A model generated the notes under the pieces. It saw only the letters and a program-made list of their open reading frames with translations. It ran no database searches and was not told the DNA's origin. Of a stretch of 64,000 nt of DNA, positions 605 through 43,403 are shown one piece after another; within the stretch, counting starts at the first letter, position 1, and every line of letters starts with the position of its first letter. A program made the position numbers and the translations under genes. The DNA comes from an uncultured Pelagibacteraceae bacterium. Lineage in GTDB: Bacteria > Pseudomonadota > Alphaproteobacteria > Pelagibacterales > Pelagibacteraceae. The DNA lies in contig CACBWM010000001.1 of assembly GCA_902542975.1 (NCBI GenBank), positions 62,001 to 126,000 on the forward strand. The letters are read 5' to 3'.

Positions 605-1867
605 ATGAGCAGCGAAACAAAACAAATACTTACAACCGATGGAATTCCTTTAGAGATAAGCTTAAAAAAAGCTGAAAGGAAAAATAAAATCAAAGCATTT
701 CTACTTGTTGCTCCATTATTACTTTTTTTGATTATCACTTATATTTTTCCAATCGGGGAAATGTTTACAAGAAGCATTGATGATAAAATGATTACAAACA
801 TGCTTCCAAAAACATTTAAGTCTATGGAAACATGGGACGGTAAAGAGCTTCCATCCGAAGAAGTATTTGCTTCATTTTTATCTGATTTTAAAATTCTTGT
901 AGAAAAAAAAGAACATGGAAAATTAGCCCAAAGACTTAATAAAGAAAAAAATGGGTTCAACACTATTACAAAAAAATTATTCAGACAGGTAAAAAGGAAT
1001 AAAATCGACGAGACACAAAGTATTAAAGAACAAATAATGAAAGTGCACAAGAGATGGAGAAATGTAGAATATTGGCAAGCAATTAAAAGAACTGCCCCTC
1101 CTTATACTTCAGCTAAATATTTAAAAGCTATGGATATGTATTTGAATGAAGATAACAAAATTACTCAAGTTAGTGAAGATAGAAGAATACATAGAATTTT
1201 ATGGTTGAGAACTGTAGAGGTTGCTTTCTTTGTAACGGTTTTTTGTTTTTTAATGGGTTACCCAATAGCCCATTTACTAGCAACACTCCCAATGAAGTAT
1301 AGTAATTTATTAATGATTTGCGTTCTTCTACCATTTTGGACATCATTATTAGTTAGAACAGCTAGCTGGATGATTTTACTTCAACAGCAAGGAGTAGTTA
1401 ACGATTTCTTTGTAATGATTGGGATCGTGGCAGACGATAATAGGCCAGAAATGATGTACAACAAAGTCGGAACTTATGTTGCGATGACTCAAATCCTCTT
1501 ACCATTTATGGTTTTACCACTCTACAGTGTGATGAAAACCATCTCGCCGAGTTTAATGAGAGCAGGTAAATCTCTTGGCGGAACACCTTTTGTGGCTTTT
1601 TGGAAAGTATATTTTCCATTAACCATACCAGGTATCGGGGCAGGGTGTCTTTTAGTTTTTATTTTAGCAATTGGATATTACATTACACCTGCATTAGTTG
1701 GGGGAGCATCAGGAACCTTAATTAGTAACCAAATTGCATATCATATGAAAACTACTTTAGATTGGAGTTTTGCTTCAGCGATGGGGCTTATGTTGCTTGG
1801 AGGAGTTTTGGTTATTTATTGGCTTTATAATAAATTAGTTGGAGTTGATAATATTAAGTTAGGTTAG
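605..1867 (+). CDS. ABC transporter permease, PotB-like, with large periplasmic insert
   Basis: Inner-membrane subunit of the importer whose binding protein ends at 537. Residues 31-50 form the first membrane helix. About 145 mostly hydrophilic, lysine-rich residues follow, and the usual permease core starts near residue 195. The EAA-loop region that contacts the ATPase is visible as 'SLGGTPFVAFWKVYFPLTIPG' in the last third. At 420 residues it is clearly longer than typical PotB (about 280), and the excess is the insert after helix 1. The ATG sits 4 bp after the terminator T-run, so expression probably depends on read-through. The next permease starts one base after this stop. The ATPase is not in the window and presumably lies upstream. 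Confidence 0.88.
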   Translation: MSSETKQILTTDGIPLEISLKKAERKNKIKAFLLVAPLLLFLIITYIFPIGEMFTRSIDDKMITNMLPKTFKSMETWDGKELPSEEVFASFLSDFKILVEKKEHGKLAQRLNKEKNGFNTITKKLFRQVKRNKIDETQSIKEQIMKVHKRWRNVEYWQAIKRTAPPYTSAKYLKAMDMYLNEDNKITQVSEDRRIHRILWLRTVEVAFFVTVFCFLMGYPIAHLLATLPMKYSNLLMICVLLPFWTSLLVRTASWMILLQQQGVVNDFFVMIGIVADDNRPEMMYNKVGTYVAMTQILLPFMVLPLYSVMKTISPSLMRAGKSLGGTPFVAFWKVYFPLTIPGIGAGCLLVFILAIGYYITPALVGGASGTLISNQIAYHMKTTLDWSFASAMGLMLLGGVLVIYWLYNKLVGVDNIKLG

Positions 1868-2723: not shown

Positions 2724-3848
2724 TTAATTTACCGACTCGATTACTGTCGCAATACCCATACCTAAACCGATACATTGAGTAGATAAAGCATATTTCTTAT
2801 TTTCACGTCTAAGTAAATCTGCAGCTTTGCCAGTTATTCTCGCTCCTGTTGCTCCTAGAGGGTGTCCCAGTGCTAAAGCTCCACCATCTAAATTAGCTTT
2901 TTTTTGATCGATACCAAGATCTTTTAAGCATGCTATTGATTGAGAAGCAAAAGCTTCATTAATCTCTACAATATCGATATCATTAATTGATAAATTTGCT
3001 CTCTCTAATGCTTTCTTAGTTGCTCCTATAGGTCCAAGTCCCATTACATCTGGTTCACATCCTTTAACTCCAGTTGAAACAATTCTAGCTAAAATCTCTA
3101 AACCATTTTCTTTGGCATAGCTTTCTTCACATATCAATGTTGCTGCTGCTCCATCGGTAAGAGGTGAGGATGTTGCCGCAGTAACAGTTCCTTCTTGATC
3201 AAATGCAAGTTTTAAACCATCTAAAGTTTCTTGATTACTTTTTGGACGTATGTTTCCATCTTTTGTGCAACCAGCGATTTCAACGATTTCATTTTTAAAT
3301 TTACCATTAACTTCAGCTTCATTGGCTTTTTGATGACTTTGAATTGCAAACTCTTGTTGTTCAGTTCTTGAAATTTTATATCTCTTGGCAACATTTTCAG
3401 CAGTTATTCCCATTGAAAAATAGACATTTGGATTTTCTTTATCTGTGTAAGGATAAGGTATTGGTTCAAAGCCAGTTGTAACCCTAGTCATACTTTCAAC
3501 ACCTCCGCACACAAAAACTTTACCTGCGCCCATTGCTATTTTACCTGCTGCAACGTGAATAGCCTCCATAGATGAGCCGCACCATCTATCAACTGTCATT
3601 CCAGATGTATGTATTTCCATTCCAGATAAAAATGTTGTGAGTTTCCCAATATTAAAACTCTGCTCTCCAACCTGGAAAGCACACCCAACAACAATATCTT
3701 CTATATCAGCAGGATTTACTTTAGTTTTAGATACAAGATTTTTAACAACTTCTGCAAACATATTTACAGGCTTAACATCAATTAATTCACCTTTTCTTGC
3801 CATTGTAAAAGGTGATCTTGAATATCCTGCTATAACTGCTCTTTTCAT
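2724..3848 (-). CDS. Thiolase family protein (acetyl-CoA C-acyltransferase)
   Basis: Cytosolic thiolase that cleaves 3-ketoacyl-CoA with CoA, or condenses acyl-CoAs. The nucleophile Cys90 lies in 'RWCGSSMEAIH'; a 'NEAF' motif is near residue 290; His329 is in 'GHPLGATGAR'; the second catalytic Cys359 is in 'CIGLGMG'. All expected catalytic residues are present and 374 residues is normal. It is the last gene of the minus-strand run 10167-2724, 23 bp after the DmdA-like gene. In that context it may act on an acyl-CoA product of the run rather than in general fatty-acid oxidation, but this is inference. Chain-length specificity cannot be read. Confidence 0.92.
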   Translation of the reverse strand: MKRAVIAGYSRSPFTMARKGELIDVKPVNMFAEVVKNLVSKTKVNPADIEDIVVGCAFQVGEQSFNIGKLTTFLSGMEIHTSGMTVDRWCGSSMEAIHVAAGKIAMGAGKVFVCGGVESMTRVTTGFEPIPYPYTDKENPNVYFSMGITAENVAKRYKISRTEQQEFAIQSHQKANEAEVNGKFKNEIVEIAGCTKDGNIRPKSNQETLDGLKLAFDQEGTVTAATSSPLTDGAAATLICEESYAKENGLEILARIVSTGVKGCEPDVMGLGPIGATKKALERANLSINDIDIVEINEAFASQSIACLKDLGIDQKKANLDGGALALGHPLGATGARITGKAADLLRRENKKYALSTQCIGLGMGIATVIESVN

Positions 3849-3871
3849 ATAAGACTTATACCTACTAATTA

Positions 3872-5035
3872 TTATTTTGAAAATGGTAAAGAGGACACAA
3901 TTCCTTTTCTTAATTTATTATCAGGAGTGTGAACTAAAACTTCTGATCCTGTTTTGCAAAATTCATTTAAAATCATAGATAAACCAATATTTTTTTTGAA
4001 TTTTGGAGAATAAATCCCTGAAGTAATTTTACCAATTAATTTCTTATCTTTTGAATAAAGTGGAAAAGGAATTGAACATGGAGGACAATCTACACCATCA
4101 AATAATACTCCTTTTAATTTTTGTTTTACACCTTGTTTCTTAATATTATCTAAAGCATTTTTTCCAATGAAATCATGATCGCTTTTGTCACTACAATATT
4201 TTTCTAAGTTACATTCAATTGGATTATTTTCTTTTGTAAAATCATTTCCATATGACATTAATCCTGCTTCTATTCTGTCAATTAAATTTGGGCATCCTGG
4301 AGCAATGTTAAATTCTTTCCCCGCTTTCCATATTATATCCCAAATTTTTTCTCCCATTTCATTTTTGTCGAAGTAATCTTCAAAGCATTTAAAATAAATT
4401 TCAAATCCATCTTGTTTGCTGTATCCTGATCTTGCAATAACTTGTTTAGTTCCTAAAAAATCAAATATTCTAAAATTAAAAAATTTTAATTTTCTAATAT
4501 CTTCTCCGAATATTGATGACATCAAATCTTCAGACTTTGGACCTTGTACTGCAAGAGGATATACATCTGGTTCTGTTATGCTCACATTTAGATTTAAACC
4601 AACTGCAATACCTTTTGCCCAAAGCAATACATCAGAATCTGCTATTGAAATCCAAAACATATCATCATCTAACTTTAACAACACTGGATCATTTATCATT
4701 CCAGCATTTTCATCTATCATAGGAATATAAAAACATTTTCCAGTCTCCATATTTTTTAAAGATCTTGGCGTCATTTTTTGTACTAATAAACTAGCGTCTG
4801 GACCTGATATCTGAACTTGTCTTTGACAAGAAACATCCCATAGCTGAACATGCTCATTTAAATGCCAATAATCATCCTCAACAGATTTCTGAAATCTTTT
4901 TGGTAAGAGCATATGATTTACAACAGTAAAATCAGTTACACCACATTCTTCAACTCTCTTGGTGTAAGGAGTTCTTCTTATCCTCCTAGACATATTTAGT
5001 TTTGTGCTAATTTTGCTTTGTATCAACGAAGCCAT
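3872..5035 (-). CDS. GcvT-fold tetrahydrofolate methyltransferase, DMSP-demethylase (DmdA)-like
   Basis: The 387-residue protein has the glycine-cleavage T-protein fold. It resembles SAR11 DMSP demethylases as I remember them: an N-terminal 'SRRIRRTPYTKRVEE' and 'NHMLLPKRF' block, 'VQLWDVSCQRQVQI', 'LADSD/IADSDVLLWAKG', and 'GCPNLIDRIEAGLMSYGNDFT' around residue 260. DmdA moves a methyl group from dimethylsulfoniopropionate to tetrahydrofolate. SAR11 carries several related paralogues with unknown substrates, so I give the family but not the symbol. A second GcvT-fold gene lies in the same operon at 8944, and a hydroxyisourate-hydrolase-like gene is 3 bp upstream. That setting is unusual for a classical DmdA. 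Met15 ('MSRRIRR') is a possible alternative start. Confidence 0.8.
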   Translation of the reverse strand: MASLIQSKISTKLNMSRRIRRTPYTKRVEECGVTDFTVVNHMLLPKRFQKSVEDDYWHLNEHVQLWDVSCQRQVQISGPDASLLVQKMTPRSLKNMETGKCFYIPMIDENAGMINDPVLLKLDDDMFWISIADSDVLLWAKGIAVGLNLNVSITEPDVYPLAVQGPKSEDLMSSIFGEDIRKLKFFNFRIFDFLGTKQVIARSGYSKQDGFEIYFKCFEDYFDKNEMGEKIWDIIWKAGKEFNIAPGCPNLIDRIEAGLMSYGNDFTKENNPIECNLEKYCSDKSDHDFIGKNALDNIKKQGVKQKLKGVLFDGVDCPPCSIPFPLYSKDKKLIGKITSGIYSPKFKKNIGLSMILNEFCKTGSEVLVHTPDNKLRKGIVSSLPFSK

Positions 5036-5038
5036 ATA

Positions 5039-5374
5039 TTATTTTGACCACCAAACTGTATAGCTGTTAGGAGAAATTATTATTGGCAAGTGATAATTTT
5101 TTTTATTATCAGTCATTTTAAATTTTACGACTATTTCACCCACTATTTTTTTCTTTTTAAAGTATTTTTTAATATCACAAATCATTTCATAATCGCATTT
5201 ACAATCTTTTTTGCTAAGATTGAAATGCTGATTAATCCTACCATTTCCATCAGTCTTTGTATTCAAAAAAAGCTTTTTTAATTTTGAGGATTGTATTTGA
5301 TAAATCTTTACTTTGACGTTACTTGCATGAGTTCCATCAGAACCATTCAATAAATGTGAGCTAAATTTTGCCAT
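5039..5374 (-). CDS. 5-hydroxyisourate hydrolase / transthyretin-like protein
   Basis: A 111-residue protein of the HIUase/transthyretin family. It has the N-terminal 'SSHLLNGSDGTHASNVKVKIY' segment with the His that corresponds to the family's first signature, a 'TDGNGRIN' segment (the conserved Arg region), and a late 'NYHLPIIISPNSYTVWW' that matches the usual 'HYHVPLLLSP' region. HIUase opens 5-hydroxyisourate in purine (urate) breakdown. The canonical C-terminal tetrapeptide Tyr-Arg-Gly-Ser is not present; the chain ends Trp-Trp-Ser-Lys. No other uric-acid genes (urate oxidase, OHCU decarboxylase, allantoinase) are seen in the window. It sits between a ThDP enzyme and a DmdA-like gene with 1-3 bp gaps, so it likely serves that pathway. 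Confidence 0.75.
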   Translation of the reverse strand: MAKFSSHLLNGSDGTHASNVKVKIYQIQSSKLKKLFLNTKTDGNGRINQHFNLSKKDCKCDYEMICDIKKYFKKKKIVGEIVVKFKMTDNKKNYHLPIIISPNSYTVWWSK

Positions 5375-5375
5375 T

Positions 5376-7115
5376 TTACTCTATTGAAGATTTCTCTCTC
5401 TTGCTGGCCACAGCAGCAACAATTGGACTTAATACTGGTTTAGCTTTTACATTTACACAAGCAGTTTTACCGCTTGCAATAGCTCTTTTTAGTGCTGGAC
5501 CCAATTCTTCTCTTTTCGTTACTAATTCTCCATGACCCCCAAAACCTTCAAATATACTGTGGAAAGGTATATCTCTAAAGTCTGTTGCAACTCTTTTTCC
5601 GCTTTCAAATAGTCTTTCTTGTTGTTGACCAATTGATGCTAAGCCACCATTATTGTCAATAACAACAACGATTGGTTTCTTTTCAAAAAATGCAGTTTCT
5701 ATAGACATGCCACCAGATAAAAAGGCACCATCTCCACTAATTAAAATTACGTTCGATTTAGGATTATTATTTTTTGCAGATAATGCAAATGATACACCAA
5801 CACCCAGCATACTAAATGTGCCTGGATGTAAAATTCCACCTAATTTTTTTCCTTGAGCTCCTGCTAAATTTATAGCGATCTCCGACCAGAAATGAGTATT
5901 TCCTCCATCAATTACAAGCCAATCTTTCTCATCCATTGCGTCTTGAACGTCTAACGCTAATTGTAGCGGATGAATTTTTCCTCCATTTTTTTTTGCTTTA
6001 TCTGCTTCAATCTTTAATTCATTTAAAGATTTATCCACCCAATCTTTTTTTTTATTTTTATTATCTTGAAACCAACTATTTCTTAAATTCCATTTATTAT
6101 TTTTCTTTAAATTACATAGAGTATCCAAAAATACTCCTGGATCACATAAAAGGTTATGATCAGCCGCTCTATTAAACTCAATTTCTTCATGGGAACCATT
6201 AATACAAACTAACGTTGTTGTTTTTGGAATGAAAGGAGGGTTACCAAAATTCATTTGGTTATCTAACCTTGCACCAATCATTAAAACTAAGTCTGAATTA
6301 TGTAATGCAAATTCTGAGGGTGGATATTGGTGAATATCTGCTAAACCCATATATGCATTTGCCTCTTCCCCCAAAAGTTTTTGATGGTATGGCACATTAA
6401 AAACTGGAATATTTAAACTTTCACCCGCAGTCTCTAAATTTTTTTCTGAGTTTGACCACCAAACACCATGTCCTCCAATTATGACAGGTTTTTTTGCATT
6501 ACATGCTAGCTCAAGTATTTTTGATAGAGCATTTGGATCTGGCCATGCTTTAGCAACTGGCTTTGCTTTATGTGAAAATGGTCTTTCTTCAAGTCCAGCA
6601 TTTTCTTCAAATGAAGAAAACATTATATCCACTGGTAAACTTAGATGAACAGCTCCAGGATATCCATTCGTTGCAATTCTGTAAGCTTTGTCAACAAATT
6701 CTCTAATTCTTGTTCCATCTGTAATGCTTGCGCTATATTTTGTAAGAGGAGCAGCTATTGAAACATCATCAATTTCTTTAAAGCCACCTGAGCCTTGTCT
6801 TTTTAAACTACTTGATCCAGTTATATAAATTATCGGTGTTCTTTCTCCCCATGCTTCCATCATAGATGGCACTGCATTTGCAAAACCTTCTGGTCCAACT
6901 AAACATACAGATGGTTTTCTTGTAATTCTTGTGTGTCCATCTGCTAAGTGTCCAGCTATTTGTTCATGAGGACAATTAACCACATCAATTTGACATTCCA
7001 TGAAACCTTCAATAGCAGGATTACAAAACCCACCAGATAGAGTAAAAACTTTATTAATACCTTTATCTTTTAATGCTCTTGCAATTAATGCTCCGCCTCT
7101 TATTTTTTTTTCCAT
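5376..7115 (-). CDS. Thiamine-diphosphate enzyme of the acetolactate synthase / 2-hydroxyacyl-CoA lyase / decarboxylase superfamily
   Basis: A 579-residue three-domain ThDP enzyme. The catalytic glutamate is Glu51 in 'CPHEQIAGH'. The ThDP/Mg motif 'GDGAFLSGGMS...VIDNNGG' lies in the C-terminal quarter. A 'SSSLKRQGSGGFKEIDDVS' stretch near residue 105 recalls oxalyl-CoA decarboxylase and 2-hydroxyacyl-CoA lyase more than acetolactate synthase. It is adjacent (1 bp) to an FMN-dependent 2-hydroxyacid oxidase. That pair matches mandelate-type chemistry, in which a 2-hydroxyacid is oxidised to a 2-oxoacid and then decarboxylated to an aldehyde. That route is inference. Acetolactate synthase for branched amino acids is unlikely because no regulatory subunit gene is nearby. 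Confidence 0.83.
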   Translation of the reverse strand: MEKKIRGGALIARALKDKGINKVFTLSGGFCNPAIEGFMECQIDVVNCPHEQIAGHLADGHTRITRKPSVCLVGPEGFANAVPSMMEAWGERTPIIYITGSSSLKRQGSGGFKEIDDVSIAAPLTKYSASITDGTRIREFVDKAYRIATNGYPGAVHLSLPVDIMFSSFEENAGLEERPFSHKAKPVAKAWPDPNALSKILELACNAKKPVIIGGHGVWWSNSEKNLETAGESLNIPVFNVPYHQKLLGEEANAYMGLADIHQYPPSEFALHNSDLVLMIGARLDNQMNFGNPPFIPKTTTLVCINGSHEEIEFNRAADHNLLCDPGVFLDTLCNLKKNNKWNLRNSWFQDNKNKKKDWVDKSLNELKIEADKAKKNGGKIHPLQLALDVQDAMDEKDWLVIDGGNTHFWSEIAINLAGAQGKKLGGILHPGTFSMLGVGVSFALSAKNNNPKSNVILISGDGAFLSGGMSIETAFFEKKPIVVVIDNNGGLASIGQQQERLFESGKRVATDFRDIPFHSIFEGFGGHGELVTKREELGPALKRAIASGKTACVNVKAKPVLSPIVAAVASKREKSSIE

Positions 7116-7116
7116 A

Positions 7117-8277
7117 TTAGTAAGTTGTATTCATAAAAAGTTTTTGTTCGATTATATCAGAAGAAACTTCATTAATATCATTTAATCCAACCAAACCTAG
7201 TGTTGTGCTGGTTTCTTCTTTGATTATGTCTACAATTCTTCTTAGCCCGCTAGCACCATCAGCGCCCATAGCATACATTACAGGCCTTCCAATCATTGAA
7301 AAATCTGCTCCTAAAGCTAATGATCTAACAATATCGCTACCACTTCTTATCCCACTATCAAAAATAATCGGAAAATTATTTCCTACTGCCTCTCTAATAA
7401 AAGGTAAAATGTTTATTGCTGCTGAGGCACTATCTAATTGTCTACCTCCATGATTTGAAACTTGAATAGCATCAGCGCCCATTTCTTTAATTTTAACTGC
7501 ATCATCTGATGACATAACACCTTTTACAATTAATTTGCCTTTCCATTTATTTCTTACTCTTTTTAGAGTTTCCCAATCTGTTTTTCCTCTACTTTCTTTT
7601 CTTTTAAAAACACCTTTTCCACTTTTTGAAGTCTCGTAATTCATTGGCTTTGGTATTCCATTAAGCAATGTAGATATTGACCAAACTGGATGAGTTGCAA
7701 AATCAAAAAATTGTTTAGGTCCAATTTTAAATGGATATGAGAATCCATTTTTATCATCTCTAGTTCTCCTAGATAAAACCGGAACATCAACAGTAAGTAT
7801 AGCAACTTCATAACCAGTTTTTTCTGCTCTATCGAGCAATTCCATGACAAAAGCTTCATCCTGAAAAATATAAAGTTGAAGCCACGAATGACCTTCTGAA
7901 AGTTCATGCATTTTTTCTAAGGTAGTTGTGGAAGCCATCGATACACAAGTTGGTATATTATTTCTTGCACTCTCTTTTGCCAGCATTGAGTCTGCTCCCG
8001 GCCATGAAAGATTTGTCATACCCATTGGGGCAAAACCAAATGGATAGTCATAGTTAAATCCAAGAATATTTTTTTTTAGTTTTCTTTCCTCTACATTTCT
8101 TAGAACTCTTGGCTCAAGACGTATTTGATCTAAAGCAAAACTATTAATTTCTGATAACTTTTCATCTCCAGATGCGCCATCAATAAAATCATAAACTATC
8201 TTTGGCAATCTTTTCTTTGATAGTTTTTTTGCGTCTTCAATGCTAAAAATTTTATTACTGGCTTTAATGTTATCCAT
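7117..8277 (-). CDS. FMN-dependent alpha-hydroxy acid oxidase/dehydrogenase (LldD / glycolate oxidase family)
   Basis: A 386-residue TIM-barrel flavoenzyme that oxidises (S)-2-hydroxyacids to 2-oxoacids. The signature 'VSNHGGRQLDSASAAI' contains the catalytic His and an Arg-Asp pair. It is followed by 'FDSGIRSGSDIVRSLALGA' and 'IGRPVMYAMGADG', which bind the FMN phosphate. The N-terminal 'IEDAKKLSKKRLPKIVYDFIDGASGDE' is typical of the family. The natural substrate (lactate, glycolate, mandelate or another acid) is not evident. It overlaps the upstream peptidase-like gene by 8 bp and is 1 bp from the ThDP enzyme, so the products are probably made together and may act in sequence. Confidence 0.9.
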   Translation of the reverse strand: MDNIKASNKIFSIEDAKKLSKKRLPKIVYDFIDGASGDEKLSEINSFALDQIRLEPRVLRNVEERKLKKNILGFNYDYPFGFAPMGMTNLSWPGADSMLAKESARNNIPTCVSMASTTTLEKMHELSEGHSWLQLYIFQDEAFVMELLDRAEKTGYEVAILTVDVPVLSRRTRDDKNGFSYPFKIGPKQFFDFATHPVWSISTLLNGIPKPMNYETSKSGKGVFKRKESRGKTDWETLKRVRNKWKGKLIVKGVMSSDDAVKIKEMGADAIQVSNHGGRQLDSASAAINILPFIREAVGNNFPIIFDSGIRSGSDIVRSLALGADFSMIGRPVMYAMGADGASGLRRIVDIIKEETSTTLGLVGLNDINEVSSDIIEQKLFMNTTY

Positions 8278-8965
8278 TTAAATTTTTTATATATGTTTTT
8301 AAACTTATCTTATCATGTCTAGTCACATAATAAGCGTCATGATTAATTCTTGAAGAATAAACCTCTGAAGGAACTCCGTCAATAAAAAGCACAGCTACAC
8401 CATCATCAATGGCTATTCCATCTGGCAAATTTCCGTCTTTAATTTCTGAAATAAATTGTCGAAGTCGATTATTATCTGAAGAATGAGGTGTGCAACTTCC
8501 ATCTAAAAAATTTATTCCTTTTAATGGACTTAGCTCTTTATCGACCGAGTCTGATAATATCCAATCAAACCAACAGACGGCTCCTGCGCTTATTCCACTC
8601 AGAATTATTCCCTTTTCATATGCATCTTTAAATACTTTGATAAGATTATGTCTTTTCCAAATATTAATCATGTTAGAGGTATTACCACCTCCTACATAAA
8701 TTATATCTTTGTTCATCAGCCATTCATTAAAACCTTCCACACTTGAACATAGATTAAAATGAGATAATTTAAATTTATGCGATTTAAATCTTTTATAAAA
8801 AAGATCGGTCTTTTCTTGATTATCATTGCTAGCGGTAGGTAAAAAACCGATATTTATTTTTGATTTATTAACTTGATTTATAACATATTCATCCAAGTCT
8901 TCGTCAGACGAATGTGTAAATCCACCACCACCAATTGCTATTATTATTTTTTTATTCCTGACCAC
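8270..8965 (-). CDS. Peptidase S51 (dipeptidase E / cyanophycinase-like) family protein
   Basis: 231 residues with the S51 fold. 'YVGGGNTSNMINIWKRH' corresponds to the conserved Gly-Gly-Gly-Asn strand. The nucleophile Ser is in 'SGISAGAVCWFDW', and a candidate catalytic His is in 'CTPHSSDNNR'. Family members cleave Asp-X dipeptides or related isopeptides in the cytosol. It overlaps both neighbours (22 bp with the GcvT-fold gene, 8 bp with the hydroxyacid oxidase). A dipeptide-type importer is transcribed divergently from the same operon start. A role in hydrolysing an imported amide or peptide-like substrate is therefore plausible, but it is inference. Confidence 0.8.
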   Translation of the reverse strand: MVRNKKIIIAIGGGGFTHSSDEDLDEYVINQVNKSKINIGFLPTASNDNQEKTDLFYKRFKSHKFKLSHFNLCSSVEGFNEWLMNKDIIYVGGGNTSNMINIWKRHNLIKVFKDAYEKGIILSGISAGAVCWFDWILSDSVDKELSPLKGINFLDGSCTPHSSDNNRLRQFISEIKDGNLPDGIAIDDGVAVLFIDGVPSEVYSSRINHDAYYVTRHDKISLKTYIKNLNG

Positions 8966-10167
8966 GGAGAAGGACCTGTTGGAATATCAATTTTTAAACC
9001 TCTTACAATTTCATTTTTAAAGTCATACATTGGTAAGGTGCATATTTCGCCTTTATGAATTTTATTATCATTGCAATTAACATCCACTATTAGCCCTGGT
9101 TTATATTTTGTAGAATTCATTAAAACAATTCCAACACCACATTTTTGAAAAGGTGACCAAGTGCTTGAAGTAATTTTTCCAATTATTTCATTATTAAATT
9201 TTATATAAGTTCCTTTTAAACCTGTTCCATTTTCTACTCGTATTCCCCAACATCTTTTTTCTTTATCAGCAGTCATCAATGATGATTTTCCAATAAAATA
9301 ATTTTTTTTTAAATCTACATACTTGCCTAACCCAACATCATATGGATTTGTTTCATGATTAAAGTCTTGCCCAGCTGATAATAATCCAGATTCTATTCTT
9401 TTACATCTGAAACCAGGTGTACCCGTGAGTATCATTCCCATTTTTTTTCCTTCCTCAAGAATGTAATCCCCAACTTTTTCAGTATTATTATTTTTTCTAA
9501 AATAAATTTCCCAACCAAGTTCATTACTGAAACCCGATCTACTTATGATTACCTTTTCATTTAGTATAGTTATTTCTTTCCAATCAAAATATTTCCAATT
9601 CTCAGGAAAAGTCTCTTTACTTAAAACTTTTAAAAGATCCATAGATTTTGGTCCTTGAATTTGACTTACCCAAACGTCTGGGTCAGATATTTTTACATTA
9701 AGATTATCAGTGTGCGCCTTATACCATGAAAAAAGATCACCATCAGCTTGAACAAACCAGAATTTATTTTCTTCAAGTTTTAGTAAAACTCCATCTGTAA
9801 GCATACCTCCATCGTTGTAACAAGCGAATTGGTAAGAGCACCTTCCTACTTTTACTTTTGAGATATCTCTTGTAAATATTTTTTGTAATAGTTTTTCTGC
9901 ATCAGGACCAGATATTTCATATGGATGTTCACCAGTATGACGAAAAATTACCTCTTGTCTTACCTTCCAATACATTTCATCAGCTGTTGCATGTGAAAGC
10001 ACTTCTGGATTTAATCTTCCTGCATAAAAAGAATACTCTGGATCGTAAGGAAGTTCTTGATACGCTAGAGGATGTATTCCCACAGTTCTTGCAAGTTCAA
10101 CAACTTTATTATCATTGGATTTTAAAGGTTTTACTGAAAATCTGACTTTGTTTAATTCGTTTTGCAT
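8944..10167 (-). CDS. GcvT-fold aminomethyltransferase-like protein (second paralogue of the operon)
   Basis: 407 residues with T-protein landmarks: 'YEISGPDAEKLLQKIFTRDISKVKVGRCSY' near residues 80-115, 'SQIQGPKSMDLL' in the middle, 'RIESGLLSAGQDFNHETNPYDVGL' around 260-290, and a C-terminal barrel ('GKITSSTWSP'). Such proteins transfer a one-carbon unit from an N-, O- or S-methyl compound to tetrahydrofolate. It is clearly distinct from the DmdA-like gene at 3872 but from the same superfamily. It is the first gene of the minus-strand operon and is divergent from the ABC importer at 10309. It is probably not the glycine-cleavage T protein itself, since no gcvH or gcvP is adjacent. The substrate is unknown. 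Confidence 0.85.
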   Translation of the reverse strand: MQNELNKVRFSVKPLKSNDNKVVELARTVGIHPLAYQELPYDPEYSFYAGRLNPEVLSHATADEMYWKVRQEVIFRHTGEHPYEISGPDAEKLLQKIFTRDISKVKVGRCSYQFACYNDGGMLTDGVLLKLEENKFWFVQADGDLFSWYKAHTDNLNVKISDPDVWVSQIQGPKSMDLLKVLSKETFPENWKYFDWKEITILNEKVIISRSGFSNELGWEIYFRKNNNTEKVGDYILEEGKKMGMILTGTPGFRCKRIESGLLSAGQDFNHETNPYDVGLGKYVDLKKNYFIGKSSLMTADKEKRCWGIRVENGTGLKGTYIKFNNEIIGKITSSTWSPFQKCGVGIVLMNSTKYKPGLIVDVNCNDNKIHKGEICTLPMYDFKNEIVRGLKIDIPTGPSPWSGIKK

Positions 10168-10271
10168 TTATAAATCTAGAAAAAGTGTATATTAATTAAA
10201 ATATCTATTCAATCAGTAGATGAATCACTACATTTTGCATGTTGTTATCTAGTTCTGGAATTGTTATCTTT

Positions 10272-10291
10272 TTAGTTATTTAAACAACTAA
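10272..10291. promoter_or_regulatory. Near-perfect 20-bp inverted repeat just upstream of importer gene
   Basis: Arms TTAGTT and AACTAA flank an 8-bp centre; the full 20 bp is self-complementary except for one mismatched pair. It ends 7 bp before the Shine-Dalgarno-like GAGGGA (10299-10304) of the binding-protein gene. It could be an operator for the divergent genes or a weak leader hairpin. In very AT-rich DNA chance is a real alternative. Confidence 0.35.
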
Positions 10292-10308
10292 AGAAAAAGA
10301 GGGAACTT

Positions 10309-11796
10309 ATGAAATACATACTTAAAGTTTTTTCAGTGACTTTTATGTCTCTGATATTATCTTTTTCTATTGCCAATGCATCAAGTGGAGTATTTAAAGT
10401 ATCACATGATCTTGGATTTGGAAAAGATACTAACTTAGATGCCATAACTAAAGGGCGTTTATTTCAAGTTGTCATCAAAACTCAAAATAGATTAGTAAGG
10501 CCTGATATGAACGGTGTGCCATCACCCTCATTATCAACAGATTGGAGTGCTAATTCTGATGCAACTGAATGGACATTTAATTTAAGAAAAGGAATATATT
10601 TCCATGATGGGTCAGCTTTTGATGCTCCAGATGTTAAATATTCTTTGATGAGAGCTAAAGATCCTGATATTGGATCTCCGGTTAGAAAAAGTTTAAATGT
10701 TGTAGAAGAGATTGAAGTAGTCGATCAGCATACCGTTAAAATGAAGTTATCGACTTCATTTGCTGACTTTCCATTATTGTTAACTGACTACAGATTAAGA
10801 ATGATACCTGAAGGATCAGGAGACACTATTGGACAAACAGGAGTTGGTACTGGACCATTTATAGTTGATAAATTTGATCCAGAAGGAACTACAATTCTAA
10901 AAGCTAACCCAGATTACTGGGAAGGTGCACCAGGAGTTGCAGAAGTTCATGTTATTGCGATCCCAGATGCTCAAGCAAGAATTCAAGCTCTTTTAACAGG
11001 CCAAATTGATATGAACAGATATGTTCCTTTCAATCAAAAAAAGATATTTGACAGTAATTCTAAATTTACAACAACTGTAATTCCAACTGGAAACTGGAGA
11101 GGTGTGGTTATGAGAACTGATACTGCTCCATTTGATAATCCTAAAGTGAGAAAAGCTTTTAGGTTAGCGGTTGATAGACAAGAACTTGTAGATTTGGTTA
11201 TGGGTGGTGCGGCAACTGTATCTTGTGATACACCTGTAATGCCTTCTGATCAATATCGTTTACAAATGGATTGTCCTCAAAATATTAGTAAAGCAAAAAA
11301 TTTACTAAGAGAAGCAGGATTTCCAAATGGAATTGAATTGACTGTTTATCCAGCAACTTTAGAACCAACTTGGCCTACGATTGCAGAAGTCGTTCAGCAG
11401 CAAGTTGCAAAAGCTGGAATTAAAGTCAACATTGAAATGGTACCATCTAAAGGTTACTGGAATGAAGTATGGATGAAAAAACCAGTTTCAATGACACGTT
11501 GGAACCAAAGACCAGCAGACACAATCTTGCACGAAGCTTATCATAGTGGCGCTAAATGGAATGAGTCTTATTTCAAAAATGCTGACTTTGATAAAAATTT
11601 AGCTGATGCTAGAAGTGAGTTGGATTTCAATAAAAGAAAAAAAGCATATCAAAATGCTCAAATGACTTTATGGGAACAAAGTGGAACAATGATCCCATAC
11701 CACGTATCTAGACTTGTAGTTACATCATCAAAAGTGAAAAACCTTGATGCTGTAGATCACTTTTCTATACAGTGGCATAAAGTAAAAGTTGACTAA
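10309..11796 (+). CDS. ABC transporter substrate-binding protein, DppA/OppA (SBP family 5)
   Basis: Periplasmic binding protein of 495 residues with a signal peptide (a lysine, then a hydrophobic run, and a likely cut after 'SIANA' near residue 25). Family 5 features include 'WTFNLRKGIYFHDGSAFDAPDVKYSLMRA', 'GTGPFIVDKFDPEGTTILKANPDYW' and 'NPKVRKAFRLAVDRQELVD'. The family captures di- and oligopeptides, nickel, opines and some glycosides. A GAGGGA ribosome site precedes the ATG. The permeases and a fused ATPase follow after a terminator. The divergent operon of GcvT-fold and S51-type enzymes suggests a methylated or amide-containing ligand rather than ordinary peptides; this is inference. Confidence 0.93.
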   Translation: MKYILKVFSVTFMSLILSFSIANASSGVFKVSHDLGFGKDTNLDAITKGRLFQVVIKTQNRLVRPDMNGVPSPSLSTDWSANSDATEWTFNLRKGIYFHDGSAFDAPDVKYSLMRAKDPDIGSPVRKSLNVVEEIEVVDQHTVKMKLSTSFADFPLLLTDYRLRMIPEGSGDTIGQTGVGTGPFIVDKFDPEGTTILKANPDYWEGAPGVAEVHVIAIPDAQARIQALLTGQIDMNRYVPFNQKKIFDSNSKFTTTVIPTGNWRGVVMRTDTAPFDNPKVRKAFRLAVDRQELVDLVMGGAATVSCDTPVMPSDQYRLQMDCPQNISKAKNLLREAGFPNGIELTVYPATLEPTWPTIAEVVQQQVAKAGIKVNIEMVPSKGYWNEVWMKKPVSMTRWNQRPADTILHEAYHSGAKWNESYFKNADFDKNLADARSELDFNKRKKAYQNAQMTLWEQSGTMIPYHVSRLVVTSSKVKNLDAVDHFSIQWHKVKVD

Positions 11797-11808
11797 AAGT
11801 ATTTAGAT

Positions 11809-11840
11809 AAAGGCCGCATATAAGCGGCCTTTATTTTATT
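11809..11840 (+). terminator. Rho-independent terminator after DppA-like gene
   Basis: A perfect 9-bp stem (AAAGGCCGC with GCGGCCTTT) has a 6-nt loop and a T-rich tail. It lies between the binding protein and its permease, 41 bp before the permease ATG at 11882, and should lower permease expression relative to the binding protein. Confidence 0.9.
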
Positions 11841-11881
11841 TCTATTTAATTTATTTTTGTTAAAAAGTTCTAGTTAATCTT

Positions 11882-12838
11882 ATGCTTTTATTAATTTTAA
11901 AAAGAATTGGACTAGGGCTTATCACTTTATTTATAGTTTCATTGATTACTTTTGTAGGTGTTGAAGTTTTACCTGGGGATGCATGCACAACATATTTAGA
12001 AAGAGAAGCTTATGGAGCAGCTCTTGATGCTTGTATAAAAAGACTTGGTCTAGATGTTCCTGCTTATGAAAGATACTTGGACTGGGCATCAAATGTTGTA
12101 CGAGGTGATTTTGGTTACTCTTTAAGTGGAGAAATGCCAATTAATGAAGTACTAGGTCCAAGAGTTAAAAACTCATTAGTTTTAGCCTCTGTTTCAATAC
12201 TTATAGGAATTCCTTTAGCAATTGTATTAGGAATAATAACTGCTCTTTGGAGAGATAAGCTTCCAGATATTATGATCTCAACTATCACAATTTTTTCAAT
12301 GACTATTCCTGAGTTTATTAGTGCTACTTTACTTATTTTAATTGTTGCAATTTGGCTTGGTTGGCTACCAGGCATCGTGATTATACCATCGGATGCAACT
12401 TTTTATGAATTACTCTCGAATATAATTTTACCTGTTGTTGCAATTTCAATGATTATGACCGCACACATGGCAAGAATGGTACGTTCAAGTGTAATTCAAG
12501 TAATGGCTAGTGATTACGTGCAAATGGCAATTTTAAAAGGTGTTCCATATTGGAAAATGGTATTTAGACATGTATTACCAAATGCATTATTACCAGCAAT
12601 AAATGTAGTGGCGTTAACAATTGCTTGGTTACTAGGTGGTGTTGTTGTTACAGAAGTTGTTTTTAATTATCCCGGTTTAGGCAGACTGGTAATTGAATCT
12701 ATATCAAATAGAGATTTACCTGTTGTTCAAGCATTAGCAATAATATTGGCATCAATCTATGTGGGAATAAATTTAATAGCAGATTTAATGACACTTATGC
12801 TTAATCCAAGATTAAAAAGTTTACAGATAAGAAAATAA
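11882..12838 (+). CDS. ABC transporter permease, DppB-like
   Basis: 318 residues with an N-terminal helix ('RIGLGLITLFIVSLITFVGVEVLPGD'), a periplasmic segment, and five further helices. The EAA loop reads 'DYVQMAILKGVPYWKMVFRHVLPNAL'. This is normal size and order for the DppB/OppB subunit that forms the membrane pore with DppC. The periplasmic segment has two cysteines (in 'GDACTTYLEREAYGAALDACIK'), which might form a disulfide. The gene follows the terminator at 11809 and is 1 bp from the next permease, in a 3-gene permease/ATPase unit. Confidence 0.93.
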   Translation: MLLLILKRIGLGLITLFIVSLITFVGVEVLPGDACTTYLEREAYGAALDACIKRLGLDVPAYERYLDWASNVVRGDFGYSLSGEMPINEVLGPRVKNSLVLASVSILIGIPLAIVLGIITALWRDKLPDIMISTITIFSMTIPEFISATLLILIVAIWLGWLPGIVIIPSDATFYELLSNIILPVVAISMIMTAHMARMVRSSVIQVMASDYVQMAILKGVPYWKMVFRHVLPNALLPAINVVALTIAWLLGGVVVTEVVFNYPGLGRLVIESISNRDLPVVQALAIILASIYVGINLIADLMTLMLNPRLKSLQIRK

Positions 12839-12839
12839 A

Positions 12840-13733
12840 ATGGAGAGTAATTTAATTACAGAAGATAAACATAAAAATAAGCTAGAAAAGGCTTTTGAGA
12901 TTTTAAAGACTATGGCTTCCAAGCCCTCTGGATTAATTGGTTTATCAATTGTTTTATTTCATGTAGTCTTAGCATTATTAAGCCCTTACATTGCACCATA
13001 CGATTATAAAGCAATTAGCCCAAATACCATGTTACTTGCACCTTCAGCTGAACATTGGTTTGGAACAGATAGCTTGGGTAGAGATGTTTTTACAAGAACA
13101 ATACTTGGAGGTCGAACAGCTCTTACGGTAACTTTCTTTGGATCACTTATAGCTCTTCTGTGGGGAGGTTTACTTGGAATTTTTTGTGGTTTAGTTGGAG
13201 GTAAAATTGACGATGTTGTAATGAGAGTTGTTGATGCGTTTCTTTCTATCCCTTGGATACTTGCAATGTTATTAATTGTTTCTCTTTTAGGAACATCAAC
13301 AGAGGTTTTAATTCCTGCACTAGGTTTTTTTTATGGTAAAGGAATAGTAAGAGTTGCTAGAGCTGCTACTCACGATGTTATTGCTAAAGACTTTATAGTT
13401 TCAGCCAGAGCTAGAGGTCATAGCAATATGTCTATTATTTGGAATGAAATTATTCCAAATGTTAGAGATGCTATATTAGTAGAGGGAGCAATGAGATGGT
13501 CTTGGATGTTATTAGGATTTAGCTCATTGTCATTCTTAGGTTTTGGTGTAAGTCCACCAACGCCTGATTGGGGTTTGATGATATCCAATGCTAGAGGATT
13601 GATGTCGTTTGCATACTGGTCTGTAATTGCTCCGATAGTAGGATTAAGTTCGTTAATTATTGGAATAAATTTAACTGCTGATGCATTTGCAAAAGCTTTA
13701 GGAATTGATCGTTCAACCAAGGCACCTGTTTAA
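12840..13733 (+). CDS. ABC transporter permease, DppC-like
   Basis: 297-residue partner of the DppB-like protein. The N-terminal cytoplasmic part is followed by 'SGLIGLSIVLFHVVLALLSPYIAPYD' (helix 1) and the DppC signature 'HWFGTDSLGRDVFTRTILGGRTAL'. The EAA loop is 'DFIVSARARGHSNMSIIWNEIIPNV'. It starts 1 bp after the previous stop, and its TAA is directly followed by the ATG of the ATPase gene at 13734, so the three are translated as a block. Confidence 0.93.
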   Translation: MESNLITEDKHKNKLEKAFEILKTMASKPSGLIGLSIVLFHVVLALLSPYIAPYDYKAISPNTMLLAPSAEHWFGTDSLGRDVFTRTILGGRTALTVTFFGSLIALLWGGLLGIFCGLVGGKIDDVVMRVVDAFLSIPWILAMLLIVSLLGTSTEVLIPALGFFYGKGIVRVARAATHDVIAKDFIVSARARGHSNMSIIWNEIIPNVRDAILVEGAMRWSWMLLGFSSLSFLGFGVSPPTPDWGLMISNARGLMSFAYWSVIAPIVGLSSLIIGINLTADAFAKALGIDRSTKAPV

Positions 13734-15818: not shown

Positions 15819-18041
15819 ATGAAAATAAATAATGTAGTTGTAATTGGTTCTGGAACAATGGGGAGCGGTATAGCTGCACATTTGTGTAATGCAAATGTAC
15901 CTGTCACTTTGTTGGATTTAACTACTGAAATTAGTCAAAAGGCTAAAGAGAGAATAGGAAAATCTAGACCTCCTTTGTTAATAGATAAATCAAAATTAGA
16001 TAATATACATGTAGGAAACATTGAGGAAAACTTTGATGTGGTTTCGAATGCAGATTGGATTGTAGAAGCTGTTGTAGAAAGAATAGATATAAAACATAAT
16101 ATTTACGAAAAAATATTTAAGCATAGAAAAAAAGAGTCCGTTGTTTCATCTAATACCTCATCTATTCCAATAAGTGTTCTTTCAGAAAAATTATCTGATC
16201 AAGACAAAAAGGATTTCTGCATAACTCACTTCTTTAATCCTGTAAGATACATGGATTTACTGGAAATAGTAAAAAGTAATGAAAGCGATTTAGATAAAGT
16301 TAAACTTTTAAAAAACTTTTGTGAAATAGACTTAGGCAAAGGTGCAATTATCTGTAATGACACTCCAGGATTTTTAGGTAATAGAATTGGAGTTTATGCA
16401 ATGCAAATTGCAATGACAGAAGCATTTAATATGAAACTTAGTGTTGAAGAGGCTGATGCTGTATTTGGCAGACCAATGGGCATACCTAAAACTGGAGTAT
16501 TTGGATTGTATGACCTAATAGGTATTGATTTAATGGCAGATGTATTAAAAAGTTTTATTAAAGAATTACCTGAAAGCGATCCATTTCAACGTGTAGCAAA
16601 AGAAATGCCACTTGTAAAAAAATTAATAGAAACTGGATATACCGGTAGAAAAGGAAAAGGTGGATTTTATAGAATGAATAAGGAGGGTGGTAAGAAAATT
16701 TTAGAGGCCATCAATCTTGAAACTGGGGAATATTCTCCCTCAAAAAAAATAGATATTAAATCTGAAAAAGTTGATTTAAAAAAATTAATTAATCGTGGAG
16801 ATAAATATGGAGATTATGCTTGGTCTGTAATTTCTAAAATAATAAAATATTCTTCTTCATTAGTTCCAGGTATTACAGATAAGTTTAATGACATCGATGA
16901 AGCAATGAGACTTGGCTTCAATTGGTCTAGAGGGCCTTTTGAAATGTTAAAAGAAATTGGAGTAAATAATTTTTTTCAAAAAATTGATAATTTTGAAGGA
17001 AATAAATTTTTAGAAAATTTATCAAAATCCAAAGATGAAAATTTTTATGGTGAGAGACAACAATATACTGAAATTGAAACTTTAGGAAAAATTAAACCAA
17101 GAGCCCTTAAACTTGATAAAAATAATTCTGCTGAAATTTACAGATTTCCTGAATTTAACATTGTCGAATTTACAACTAAAGCAAACGCTTTGAATTACGA
17201 TTCAATGGACTCTTTAAAAAACGCTACAGACAAACCATTGATAATTATTAATGAAAGTATGCAGTTTTCTGCTGGTGTTAATTTAACATATACTATGAAT
17301 TTTGCAGATAAAGGTGACTTTAAATCAATAGAAAAATTTGTCGGTTATTTTCAAGAAACATGCAAACATTTAAAATACTCAAAATTTCCAGTAGTTTCAG
17401 CACCATCAGGTCTTACCCTTGGAGGGGGTTTTGAAGTTTTAGTTCAAAGTAACTTTGTTGCTTCGCATACAAATATTGTTGTTGGATTAGTTGAAACATT
17501 GGTTGGTTTAGTTCCAGCCGGAGGAGGATGTAAAGAAATGTTATGGAGATGGTCTCAAACAGAAGAGGCAAAAAATGATCCAGATTTTGCGCCTTTAAAA
17601 GTTTTTGATATCATTGGTTATGCAAAAACTGCAACTTCTCCAGTCGAAGCTGAACCTCTAAAGTACTTAATCCCTGAAAATAAAAAAATAATGAGCAGAA
17701 ATAGTTTATTAAATGAAGCAAGAAAAATTTTGGATCAAAACAAAGAATTTACTCCTCCTAAAGAATGCACATTTAATTTATCTGGTAAATCTTTAAAAGA
17801 CAAAATGGTCGGCATGTTAGAAAAACTGTATAATGATAAAATTATATTAGATCATGGAATGATGGTTGGAACAGAGCTAGCAAATGTTTTAAGTGGTGGT
17901 GATACAACTATAGATAAAACTCTTACAGAAGATCAGTTGTTTAAATTAGAGTTGGATGCTTTCATGAAATTAATTGAGACAAGTAAAACTCAAGATAGAA
18001 TTAAACACACATTATCTACCGGAAAACCACTAGTTAACTAA
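15819..18041 (+). CDS. Bifunctional 3-hydroxyacyl-CoA dehydrogenase / enoyl-CoA hydratase (FadN-type domain order)
   Basis: A 740-residue beta-oxidation protein. The N-terminal NAD-binding fold ('VVVIGSGTMGSGIAAHLCNA', residues 6-25) and the dehydrogenase signature 'THFFNPVRYMDLLEIV' come first, followed by the dehydrogenase C-terminal domain. The crotonase domain lies at the C-terminal end, with an oxyanion-hole-like 'APSGLTLGGGFEVL' and 'GLVETLVGLVPAGGGCKEML' around residues 525-570. This order (dehydrogenase then hydratase) is that of FadN, opposite to E. coli FadB/FadJ. It would hydrate enoyl-CoA and oxidise 3-hydroxyacyl-CoA; a thiolase is at 2724 but not adjacent. It ends with a 12-bp overlap with the convergent cyclophilin gene. 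Confidence 0.9.
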   Translation: MKINNVVVIGSGTMGSGIAAHLCNANVPVTLLDLTTEISQKAKERIGKSRPPLLIDKSKLDNIHVGNIEENFDVVSNADWIVEAVVERIDIKHNIYEKIFKHRKKESVVSSNTSSIPISVLSEKLSDQDKKDFCITHFFNPVRYMDLLEIVKSNESDLDKVKLLKNFCEIDLGKGAIICNDTPGFLGNRIGVYAMQIAMTEAFNMKLSVEEADAVFGRPMGIPKTGVFGLYDLIGIDLMADVLKSFIKELPESDPFQRVAKEMPLVKKLIETGYTGRKGKGGFYRMNKEGGKKILEAINLETGEYSPSKKIDIKSEKVDLKKLINRGDKYGDYAWSVISKIIKYSSSLVPGITDKFNDIDEAMRLGFNWSRGPFEMLKEIGVNNFFQKIDNFEGNKFLENLSKSKDENFYGERQQYTEIETLGKIKPRALKLDKNNSAEIYRFPEFNIVEFTTKANALNYDSMDSLKNATDKPLIIINESMQFSAGVNLTYTMNFADKGDFKSIEKFVGYFQETCKHLKYSKFPVVSAPSGLTLGGGFEVLVQSNFVASHTNIVVGLVETLVGLVPAGGGCKEMLWRWSQTEEAKNDPDFAPLKVFDIIGYAKTATSPVEAEPLKYLIPENKKIMSRNSLLNEARKILDQNKEFTPPKECTFNLSGKSLKDKMVGMLEKLYNDKIILDHGMMVGTELANVLSGGDTTIDKTLTEDQLFKLELDAFMKLIETSKTQDRIKHTLSTGKPLVN

Positions 18042-43052: not shown

Positions 43053-43403
43053 TTAAAAACTCAAATTTTTCAGAGTTTTCAAATATTCGTTAAATTCATT
43101 AACAAAATTCTGTGTAGGTAAAACGTACTTTTTTCTATGGTCATTTCCGGTTTTTTCGAGGTAAAAAAATTCTTTATCACAAGCTTCTTTGATCATGAGT
43201 GCAGATTTGGGTCTAGAGGTTTTGAAAAGTCTAGTCTTAAGTTCTTCGACAGATAAGTTTTCATTTAATTTATAGGAATTCATCACAATTAACATCATGT
43301 GATAATGTGAAGGAGACTTTCTGAAAAAGTAATTACTGGATGTATGGGACAGTTTCATTTGATCTTCCCAAAATTCCAGTAAATCCTTTGATGATTTTGA
43401 CAT
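43053..43403 (-). CDS. Putative winged-helix (MarR-like) DNA-binding protein
   Basis: 116 residues, all alpha with a short beta-wing-like part. 'NLSVEELKTRLFKTSRPKSALMIKEACDKEFFYLEKTGNDHRKKYVLPTQNFVNEFNEYLKTL' fits helix-turn-helix plus wing ('KTGNDHRKKYVLP') plus C-terminal helix, as in MarR-type proteins. I see the pattern; I did not confirm it by a profile search. The start overlaps the tdm stop by one base, so it is co-transcribed with TMAO demethylase. A perfect 14-bp palindrome in the tdm/tmoX divergent promoter region would be a natural operator for it. Confidence 0.6.
   Translation of the reverse strand: MSKSSKDLLEFWEDQMKLSHTSSNYFFRKSPSHYHMMLIVMNSYKLNENLSVEELKTRLFKTSRPKSALMIKEACDKEFFYLEKTGNDHRKKYVLPTQNFVNEFNEYLKTLKNLSF

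Follow-up and report, generated by a model that had tools for sequence, protein, structure and literature searches.

A ten-gene cassette of SAR11 bacteria with a four-gene core shared across Proteobacteria: a possible route for breakdown of a methyl-onium compound

Results

Genes of the locus

We analysed a 64,000-nucleotide stretch of DNA (the window; contig CACBWM010000001.1, positions 62,001 to 126,000) from an uncultured Pelagibacteraceae bacterium of the SAR11 group, and in it a cluster of putative catabolic genes with an adjacent importer. Proteins were assigned by profile searches with Pfam and NCBIfam. Seven minus-strand open reading frames (ORFs) occupy 2724-10167, with intergenic distances, by increasing coordinate, of 23, 3, 1, 1, -8 and -22 bp. 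In the direction of transcription they encode a GcvT-fold protein (G), an S51-family hydrolase (S51), a flavin mononucleotide (FMN) oxidase-type protein (F), a thiamine diphosphate (ThDP)-dependent enzyme (T), a protein with the fold of 5-hydroxyisourate hydrolase (HIUase) (H), a DmdA-like protein (D) and a thiolase (Table 1). The divergent importer genes start 141 bp from this block. Judged by domain content, 10309-15761 is predicted to encode a complete Dpp/Opp-type ATP-binding cassette (ABC) importer. An initial annotation of this DNA had described the same seven closely spaced genes beside a complete dipeptide-type importer. The coordinates and spacing were confirmed, the Pfam domains agreed with the names given to the seven proteins, and the importer was found again as an SBP_bac_5 protein, two BPD_transp_1 permeases and an ATPase with doubled ABC_tran and oligo_HPY domains.

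Table 1. Features of the locus in window coordinates.
Feature	Position	Strand	Basis or remark
Thiolase; resident neighbour, perhaps recruited	2724..3848	-	Pfam Thiolase_N/C
D: DmdA-like, putative tetrahydrofolate (THF)-dependent methyltransferase	3872..5035	-	Pfam GCV_T + GCV_T_C; NF009133 530.5 bits
H: transthyretin/HIUase-fold protein, distinct subfamily	5039..5374	-	Pfam Transthyretin 72.3 bits
T: ThDP-dependent enzyme, in no named subfamily	5376..7115	-	Pfam TPP_enzyme N/M/C
F: FMN 2-hydroxyacid oxidase/dehydrogenase type	7117..8277	-	Pfam FMN_dh 396 bits
S51-family hydrolase, accessory	8270..8965	-	Pfam Peptidase_S51 123.7 bits
G: second GcvT-fold protein	8944..10167	-	Pfam GCV_T + GCV_T_C
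Importer family-5 solute-binding protein	10309..11796	+	Pfam SBP_bac_5 278.7 bits
Importer permease 1	11882..12838	+	Pfam BPD_transp_1 126 bits
Importer permease 2	12840..13733	+	Pfam BPD_transp_1 82.1 bits
Importer fused double ATPase, 675 aa	13734..15761	+	Pfam ABC_tran x2, oligo_HPY x2
fadB-like neighbour, outside the system; right-hand border marker	15819..18041	+	Found with or without the cassette

Conservation of the gene order in SAR11

At E <= 1e-100, 47 of the 297 genomes sampled from the order encoded T, as did 32 of the 150 genomes of the high-quality subset; within the order, all carriers belonged to the genus of the window, one of 11 genera. Neighbourhoods were fetched for 20 of the 47 carriers. 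In 17 of these the eleven genes from the thiolase to the ATPase showed the same order and orientation, and the other three (L044, L045, L056) were interrupted by the end of a contig or of the stretch. With near-identical strains excluded, identities were 79-82% for the thiolase and 81-87% for T, and fell to 51-65% for H and 54-66% for S51, so that the gene order outlasts divergence of the proteins. The ratio of nonsynonymous to synonymous substitution rates (dN/dS) against the near relative L054 was 0.014-0.204 across nine genes. Clearly, the arrangement of these genes is not due to chance.

Borders of the cassette and position of the thiolase

Two genomes without T, G020 and G030, carry both flanks of the locus in the order pot genes, thiolase, fadB and peptidyl-prolyl isomerase, with thiolase and fadB only 96 bp apart. 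This empty site indicates that the six genes at 3872-10167 and the importer at 10309-15761 are present or absent as one unit, and these results established that the genes at 3872-15761 form a ten-gene cassette at a fixed site. Of 28 genomes tested, 12 of them carriers and 16 lacking T, 27 had fadB regardless of the cassette, and this gene was therefore ruled out as a member of the system.

An ortholog of the thiolase (75-100% identity, one cut by a contig end) was found in 12/12 carriers and in 3/16 genomes without T. Since the thiolase adjoins fadB in G020 and G030 without the cassette, it can be separated from the latter, with which it is otherwise correlated. The third thiolase-positive genome without T, G022, yielded no fadB, and the thiolase stands at the very end of its contig; G022 may thus be a carrier whose assembly has a gap here. 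The thiolase at that contig end (L203, G022:C14:1-10745) is 99% identical to that of the window, and the genome is 99% complete.

A four-gene core in Proteobacteria

In wider samples T was present in 6/385 genomes of the class, 2/250 in the family of G680, 13/295 in the family of G681 and 2/398 in the phylum sample, each count including the genome of the query itself or that of the window. A search of plasmids for T at 1e-80 gave no match. For a scan of contigs of named genomes we used the best 80 of at least 537 candidates encoding a relative of T and added three loci from the class, which gave 83 loci (24 from SAR11, 59 from others). Their titles name SAR11, SAR116, Rhodobacteraceae, Rhizobiaceae, Hyphomicrobiales, Pelagibius, Comamonas, Polaromonas, Rubrivivax and gammaproteobacterial metagenome-assembled genomes, the titles of some of these last referring to ponds or Lac Pavin.

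T was labelled in all 83 loci, D in 78, H in 75 and F in 70 (71 by cluster), and the four were labelled together in 63 loci from Alpha-, Beta- and Gammaproteobacteria. For the remaining genes the numbers of labelled loci were 43 (S51), 41 (binding protein), 40 and 41 (permeases) and 36 (ATPase). All these counts are lower bounds, because contigs often end early and the ORF script missed genes (such as H of L087); some gene calls in GC-rich loci are doubtful. In the loci displayed, F, T, H and D are consecutive in this order on one strand, and in six betaproteobacterial loci a TctC gene is inserted between H and D. The older core of the system consists of the FMN oxidase, the ThDP enzyme, the HIUase-like protein and the DmdA-like protein. 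S51 is missing from loci in which this core is kept (for example L076, L079, L083 and L119) and is therefore accessory. An asparaginase was considered as its counterpart in L073 and L074 and dropped, since none lies beside T in L081. L196 shows T and H, and L200 shows T alone. Such exceptional loci indicate that T and H are the closest pair and that D is not universal.

Properties of F, T, H, S51 and G

Residue conservation was scored at aligned residues only, gaps excluded. In F, K252, H276 and R279 were invariant in 71 sequences; in FMN_dh proteins the catalytic roles are those of a His/Arg pair and a Lys. The nearest solved relatives of F are lactate oxidase and (S)-mandelate dehydrogenase. 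In T, E51 was invariant in 84 sequences. T scored below the cut-off of all 25 NCBIfam models among the matches listed, including the 2-hydroxyacyl-coenzyme A (CoA) lyase equivalog model NF058623 (237.3 bits, cut-off 600) and NF004516, the best of the acetolactate synthase models among those matches (276.3 bits, cut-off 587). Among solved structures it is closest to those of oxalyl-CoA decarboxylase, 2-hydroxyacyl-CoA lyase and benzaldehyde lyase.

H7, R46, H95 and W108 of H were invariant in 76 sequences. HIUases end with the signature Tyr-Arg-Gly-Ser; in the rows displayed, H has a Trp-containing end in its place, and it scored 72.7 bits with the HIUase model TIGR02962, under the cut-off of 87.45. 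By these profile scores, T and H fit no named subfamily. In S51, S126 and H161 were invariant in 44 sequences. G scored 206 bits with the DmdA model NF009133, under the cut-off of 410, and formed a clade of its own (100/100).

Relation of D to DmdA

D passed the cut-off of NF009133, the NCBI model of dimethylsulfoniopropionate (DMSP) demethylase (Table 1), as did 5/5 other D proteins scanned (539-634 bits). The source genome (1.14 Mb in 33 contigs, 80.89% complete, with 10 GCV_T matches) encodes a separate canonical DmdA of 369 aa, which scored 575 bits and lies beside an acyl-CoA-ligase-like ORF. The DmdA search at E <= 1e-85 hit nothing but D in G507, G673, G680, G682, G686, G688 and G1139. 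The best solved relative of D is the GcvT-like protein 3TFH (E 3e-114).

In phylogenetic trees the D proteins formed one clade (support 100/99 with 31 rows, 97/91 with 19 rows), beside which the SAR11-type and the Roseobacter-type DmdA formed two further clades. A placement of D nested between the two DmdA types (89/85), with a DmdA clade seemingly rejected (approximately unbiased (AU) test p 0.007), had been obtained with the divergent L215 and was dropped: with L215 and L208 excluded, the branching order of the three clades had a support of 73/46, with an AU p of 0.347 for an alternative. The accessible part of PMC7487153 names W171, E178 and Y180 in an alignment of DmdA, the Glu and the Tyr being folate-binding. 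When these positions were mapped by spacing, D had Glu in 31/31 sequences at the first folate-binding position, and Tyr in 29/31 and Phe in 2/31 at the second. By the same spacing W171 corresponds to the Trp of a W-x6-E-x-Y stretch in the DmdA of the source genome, where D has Tyr (30/31) or Phe (1/31). The Trp was dropped as a marker of DMSP use, as Roseobacter-type DmdA beside an acuI-like gene (L204/L216, L205/L217) also has Tyr. The Trp position does not set D apart from Roseobacter-type DmdA, and D may therefore use DMSP, another sulfonium compound or something else. On profile, tree and residue evidence, D is assigned to the DmdA-type THF methyltransferases.

Companion genes of the core

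Loci titled SAR116, Pelagibius and several genomes in the family of G681 have MttB-family methyltransferase genes near the core. In 26 genomes with 166 MttB matches among those listed, at least 9 (in 8 of the genomes) lay within 12 kb of T, against 1.2 expected (Poisson P 5e-6), and at least 5 within 5 kb, against 0.58 expected (P 3e-4); the test is weakened by radii chosen after inspection, by relatedness of the genomes and by rounded genome sizes. Homocysteine methyltransferase genes (60 matches), which stand near the core in G456, G682 and G686, numbered 3 within 12 kb against 0.48 expected (P 0.013) and 2 within 5 kb against 0.23 (P 0.023), subject to the same weaknesses of radii, relatedness and genome sizes.

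Other companions include Ldh_2, ketopantoate-reductase-type, FAH-type and MTHFR-like genes, LysR regulators, and TRAP-like or TctC genes. CoA-pathway genes accompany the core in some loci. A lower pathway like DmdB/C/D was considered and rejected: where a CoA ligase or enoyl-CoA hydratases lie near the core, they exceed the cut-offs of general fatty-acid models only, and acyl-CoA dehydrogenases in such positions exceed none among the models listed.

Three loci showed further genes. Upstream of the core of L079, on the opposite strand (L079:762-8615), there are MttB, DHDPS-family, aldehyde dehydrogenase, DAO-type and CoA ligase genes, which we take to resemble the hydroxyproline-betaine route or a set from hydroxyproline catabolism. 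In L113 a sulfatase-family protein (8129-9553) is encoded between the fadB-like gene and T; it scored 284.6 bits with the choline-sulfatase model (cut-off 433). Divergent beside the core of L190 (11812-14877) are an agmatinase-type gene and a gene for trans-3-hydroxy-L-proline dehydratase (587.9 bits, cut-off 550).

Other features of the window

A 420-aa ORF at 605-1867 (+), between a binding-protein fragment and a BPD_transp_1 permease, had no Pfam match at 1e-10; its position would fit the first permease of a Pot-type importer. At 43403-45742 (-) a 779-aa DUF1989, GCV_T and GCV_T_C fusion is encoded, shortly upstream of the divergent ORF at 45884, which specifies a binding protein. The region 33181-63376 contains ORFs resembling glutamine synthetase, glutamate-synthase-like parts and an FMO-like monooxygenase, together with ORFs that by eye resemble an iron-type alcohol dehydrogenase and a formate-THF ligase. 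This gene content recalls a SAR11 one-carbon region described in the accessible part of PMC3160333. An Rfam scan of the window gave nothing above the gathering score.

Discussion

Proposed function of the cassette

The cassette may serve to take up and break down a small compound whose onium centre, a sulfonium or a quaternary ammonium, bears methyl groups, by a route that passes through a 2-hydroxy acid; we hold belief and doubt in this proposal to be evenly balanced. The Dpp-type importer would bring in the methyl-onium compound and S51, where present, could free it from an amide. D would transfer a methyl group to THF, giving 5-methyl-THF. In SAR11 another methyl group would be transferred by G, a task that MttB-type or homocysteine methyltransferases may perform in other lineages. 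F would then oxidise an (S)-2-hydroxy acid to the 2-oxo acid, which T would decarboxylate or cleave. The close pairing of T and H suggests that they catalyse adjacent steps, and H might hydrolyse the product of T. The gene order would suit D acting last, which is a slight hint.

This proposal is supported by the gene order in 17 of 20 SAR11 neighbourhoods, the four-gene core in 63 of 83 loci, the invariant catalytic residues of F, T, H and S51, the excess of MttB genes, the place of D among DmdA-type THF methyltransferases, the presence or absence of the genes as a block and the dN/dS values. Several points weigh against it. D scores like a true DmdA and may simply use DMSP. L073, L074 and L081 have T and H with neither F nor D beside them, and even the top D-like proteins of these genomes reach no more than 35-36% identity, so that T and H need no D. 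Many loci (for example L085, L088 and L135) have no second methyltransferase in the stretch listed, and for L135, a locus of G680, the closest MttB gene among the matches listed is 10.5 kb away; the MttB excess is also subject to the weaknesses given above. The role of H is a guess, and the activity and ligand of the cassette are predictions from sequence.

The initial annotation had proposed a catabolic unit of seven genes with the importer, acting on a methylated, amide-containing compound. The unit held up, its order being intact in 17 of the 20 SAR11 neighbourhoods and the others interrupted by sequence ends; scattering of the genes among close relatives was not found in these 20. Methyl transfer as a theme gained from the two GcvT-fold proteins here and from MttB-family or homocysteine methyltransferases near the core elsewhere, and oxidation of a 2-hydroxyacid by the FMN enzyme followed by a ThDP lyase is in keeping with the catalytic residues retained in both enzymes. 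Its inclusion of the thiolase had to be revised to a separable neighbour, as this gene adjoins fadB in two genomes without the rest, and that of S51 to an accessory, in view of the core loci that lack it. Ring opening by an HIUase-like activity is a guess, since H scores under the TIGR02962 cut-off and differs at its C-terminus. The substrate and step order, in that annotation as in ours, we infer from the genes. The present analysis added the borders of the cassette, the separable thiolase, the core across Proteobacteria, the MttB excess and the recognition of H and D as distinct subfamilies. We conclude that the unit is real and occurs widely, and that its interpretation is plausible in outline.

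Alternative explanations

The onium centre can be read in two ways. If it is a sulfonium, the substrate could be a dimethylsulfonio 2-hydroxy acid such as 4-dimethylsulfonio-2-hydroxybutyrate (DMSHB), with F and T oxidising and decarboxylating it towards DMSP or its aldehyde and D demethylating the DMSP-like product. D forms one of three clades with the two types of DmdA and the DmdA cut-off was passed in 6/6 cases; F and T fit an oxidative decarboxylation; and according to the accessible part of PMC11306096 the step that decarboxylates DMSHB has yet to be understood, a gap that counts in favour of this version. However, DMSHB would leave H, S51 and G idle, T and H occur without D, and the MttB-type companions suggest an ammonium group. 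We regard it as quite unlikely. A betaine-like quaternary ammonium compound or a conjugate of one, from which G, MttB or a homocysteine methyltransferase would take the first methyl group while D acted on a second onium centre or a related compound, is better suited to the MttB excess, to the homocysteine methyltransferases near the core in G456, G682 and G686 and to L079, where MttB, DHDPS-family, aldehyde dehydrogenase and DAO-type genes (a set like that of hydroxyproline catabolism) adjoin the core. It suits D less well than DMSHB does: D groups with DMSP demethylases, and a trimethylammonium compound is no longer an onium after one demethylation, which makes a DmdA-type second step chemically awkward. 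This version also seems unlikely, and we make no choice between the two.

Each protein comes from a common superfamily and D is over the DmdA cut-off, so the cluster might be quite ordinary, with D a redundant DMSP demethylase, F and T for lactate-type acids and H for urate, gathered by chance or regulation. A gene order common to distant taxa, the other, canonical DmdA in the genome, the score of H under the HIUase cut-off and the lack of any named uricase among the neighbours scanned make this very improbable. A different question is whether the thiolase catalyses a true last step, the product being converted to a CoA ester and then cleaved. It was found in every carrier tested and in 3 of 16 genomes without T, one of which (G022) may be a gapped carrier; L113 and L194 have thiolases of 55% and 57% identity in the neighbourhood of the core; and some cores are adjoined by CoA ligase, acyl-CoA dehydrogenase or enoyl-CoA hydratase genes. 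Yet it adjoins fadB in G020 and G030 where the cassette is absent, its gap of 23 bp is the widest in the operon, and a thiolase-labelled gene was seen in only 3 of the 59 non-SAR11 loci. We consider such a role rather doubtful.

Significance

SAR11 bacteria rank with the most abundant cells of the ocean and subsist on few compounds. A ten-gene cassette in about one in six sampled genomes of the order (47/297), which looks like a pathway for a small methyl-bearing compound yet to be named, points to a compound worth finding. Because D passes the DmdA cut-off (6/6 scanned), counts of DMSP demethylation may include another pathway, a warning for the annotation of dmdA. T and H, closely paired and both outside the named subfamilies, offer a joint reaction that is testable. 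In its boldest form, which we put forward tentatively and with more doubt than belief, F-T-H-D would be an undescribed catabolic pathway of many proteobacteria. An abundant, unrecognised methyl-onium metabolite would yield 5-methyl-THF on demethylation, and a new ThDP enzyme together with a new HIUase-fold hydrolase would cut its 2-hydroxy acid skeleton. In SAR11 the pathway would come and go as a single cassette at a fixed position, and some of the genes named dmdA would serve it rather than DMSP breakdown.

Comparison with known systems

No description of this gene set was recognised in the literature, as judged from titles and the openings of abstracts with preprints and most subscription journals outside the search, which makes this a weak negative; nothing linking homarine or urate catabolism to the set was found there. 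H shares with the 5-hydroxyisourate hydrolase of urate degradation its fold and the aligned His, Arg and His, but is under the cut-off and has a Trp-containing end instead of Tyr-Arg-Gly-Ser, and no uricase was named among the neighbour genes scanned. Mandelate-type systems pair an FMN dehydrogenase with a ThDP decarboxylase. In the cassette, likewise, the FMN 2-hydroxyacid enzyme F precedes the ThDP enzyme T, and the solved relatives of F include (S)-mandelate dehydrogenase; T, however, is nearest to 2-hydroxyacyl-CoA lyases, oxalyl-CoA decarboxylase and benzaldehyde lyase, and the cassette adds two methyltransferases and H.

MttB/Mtg-type demethylation of glycine betaine has been described in marine bacteria, and the accessible part of PMC12478193 reports no MtgC in Pelagibacteraceae. 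MttB-family genes lie near the core in some lineages, whereas the SAR11 carriers have G instead. Among the one-carbon genes of SAR11, the accessible part of PMC3160333 describes THF-linked GcvT-family proteins, some with substrates unassigned; the genes of these unassigned members adjoin metF or, elsewhere, genes for sarcosine oxidase and glycine betaine transport. The likeness is that of the GcvT family, and the gene set of the cassette does not appear in that part of the paper. The closest likeness of D is to DMSP demethylation: it is of the DmdA type, over the NCBI cut-off, and keeps the folate-binding Glu and Tyr. It differs in forming its own clade in a genome that has a separate canonical DmdA, and in its company, for D stands with F, T and H, whereas DmdA in L216 and L217 stands with an acuI-like gene.

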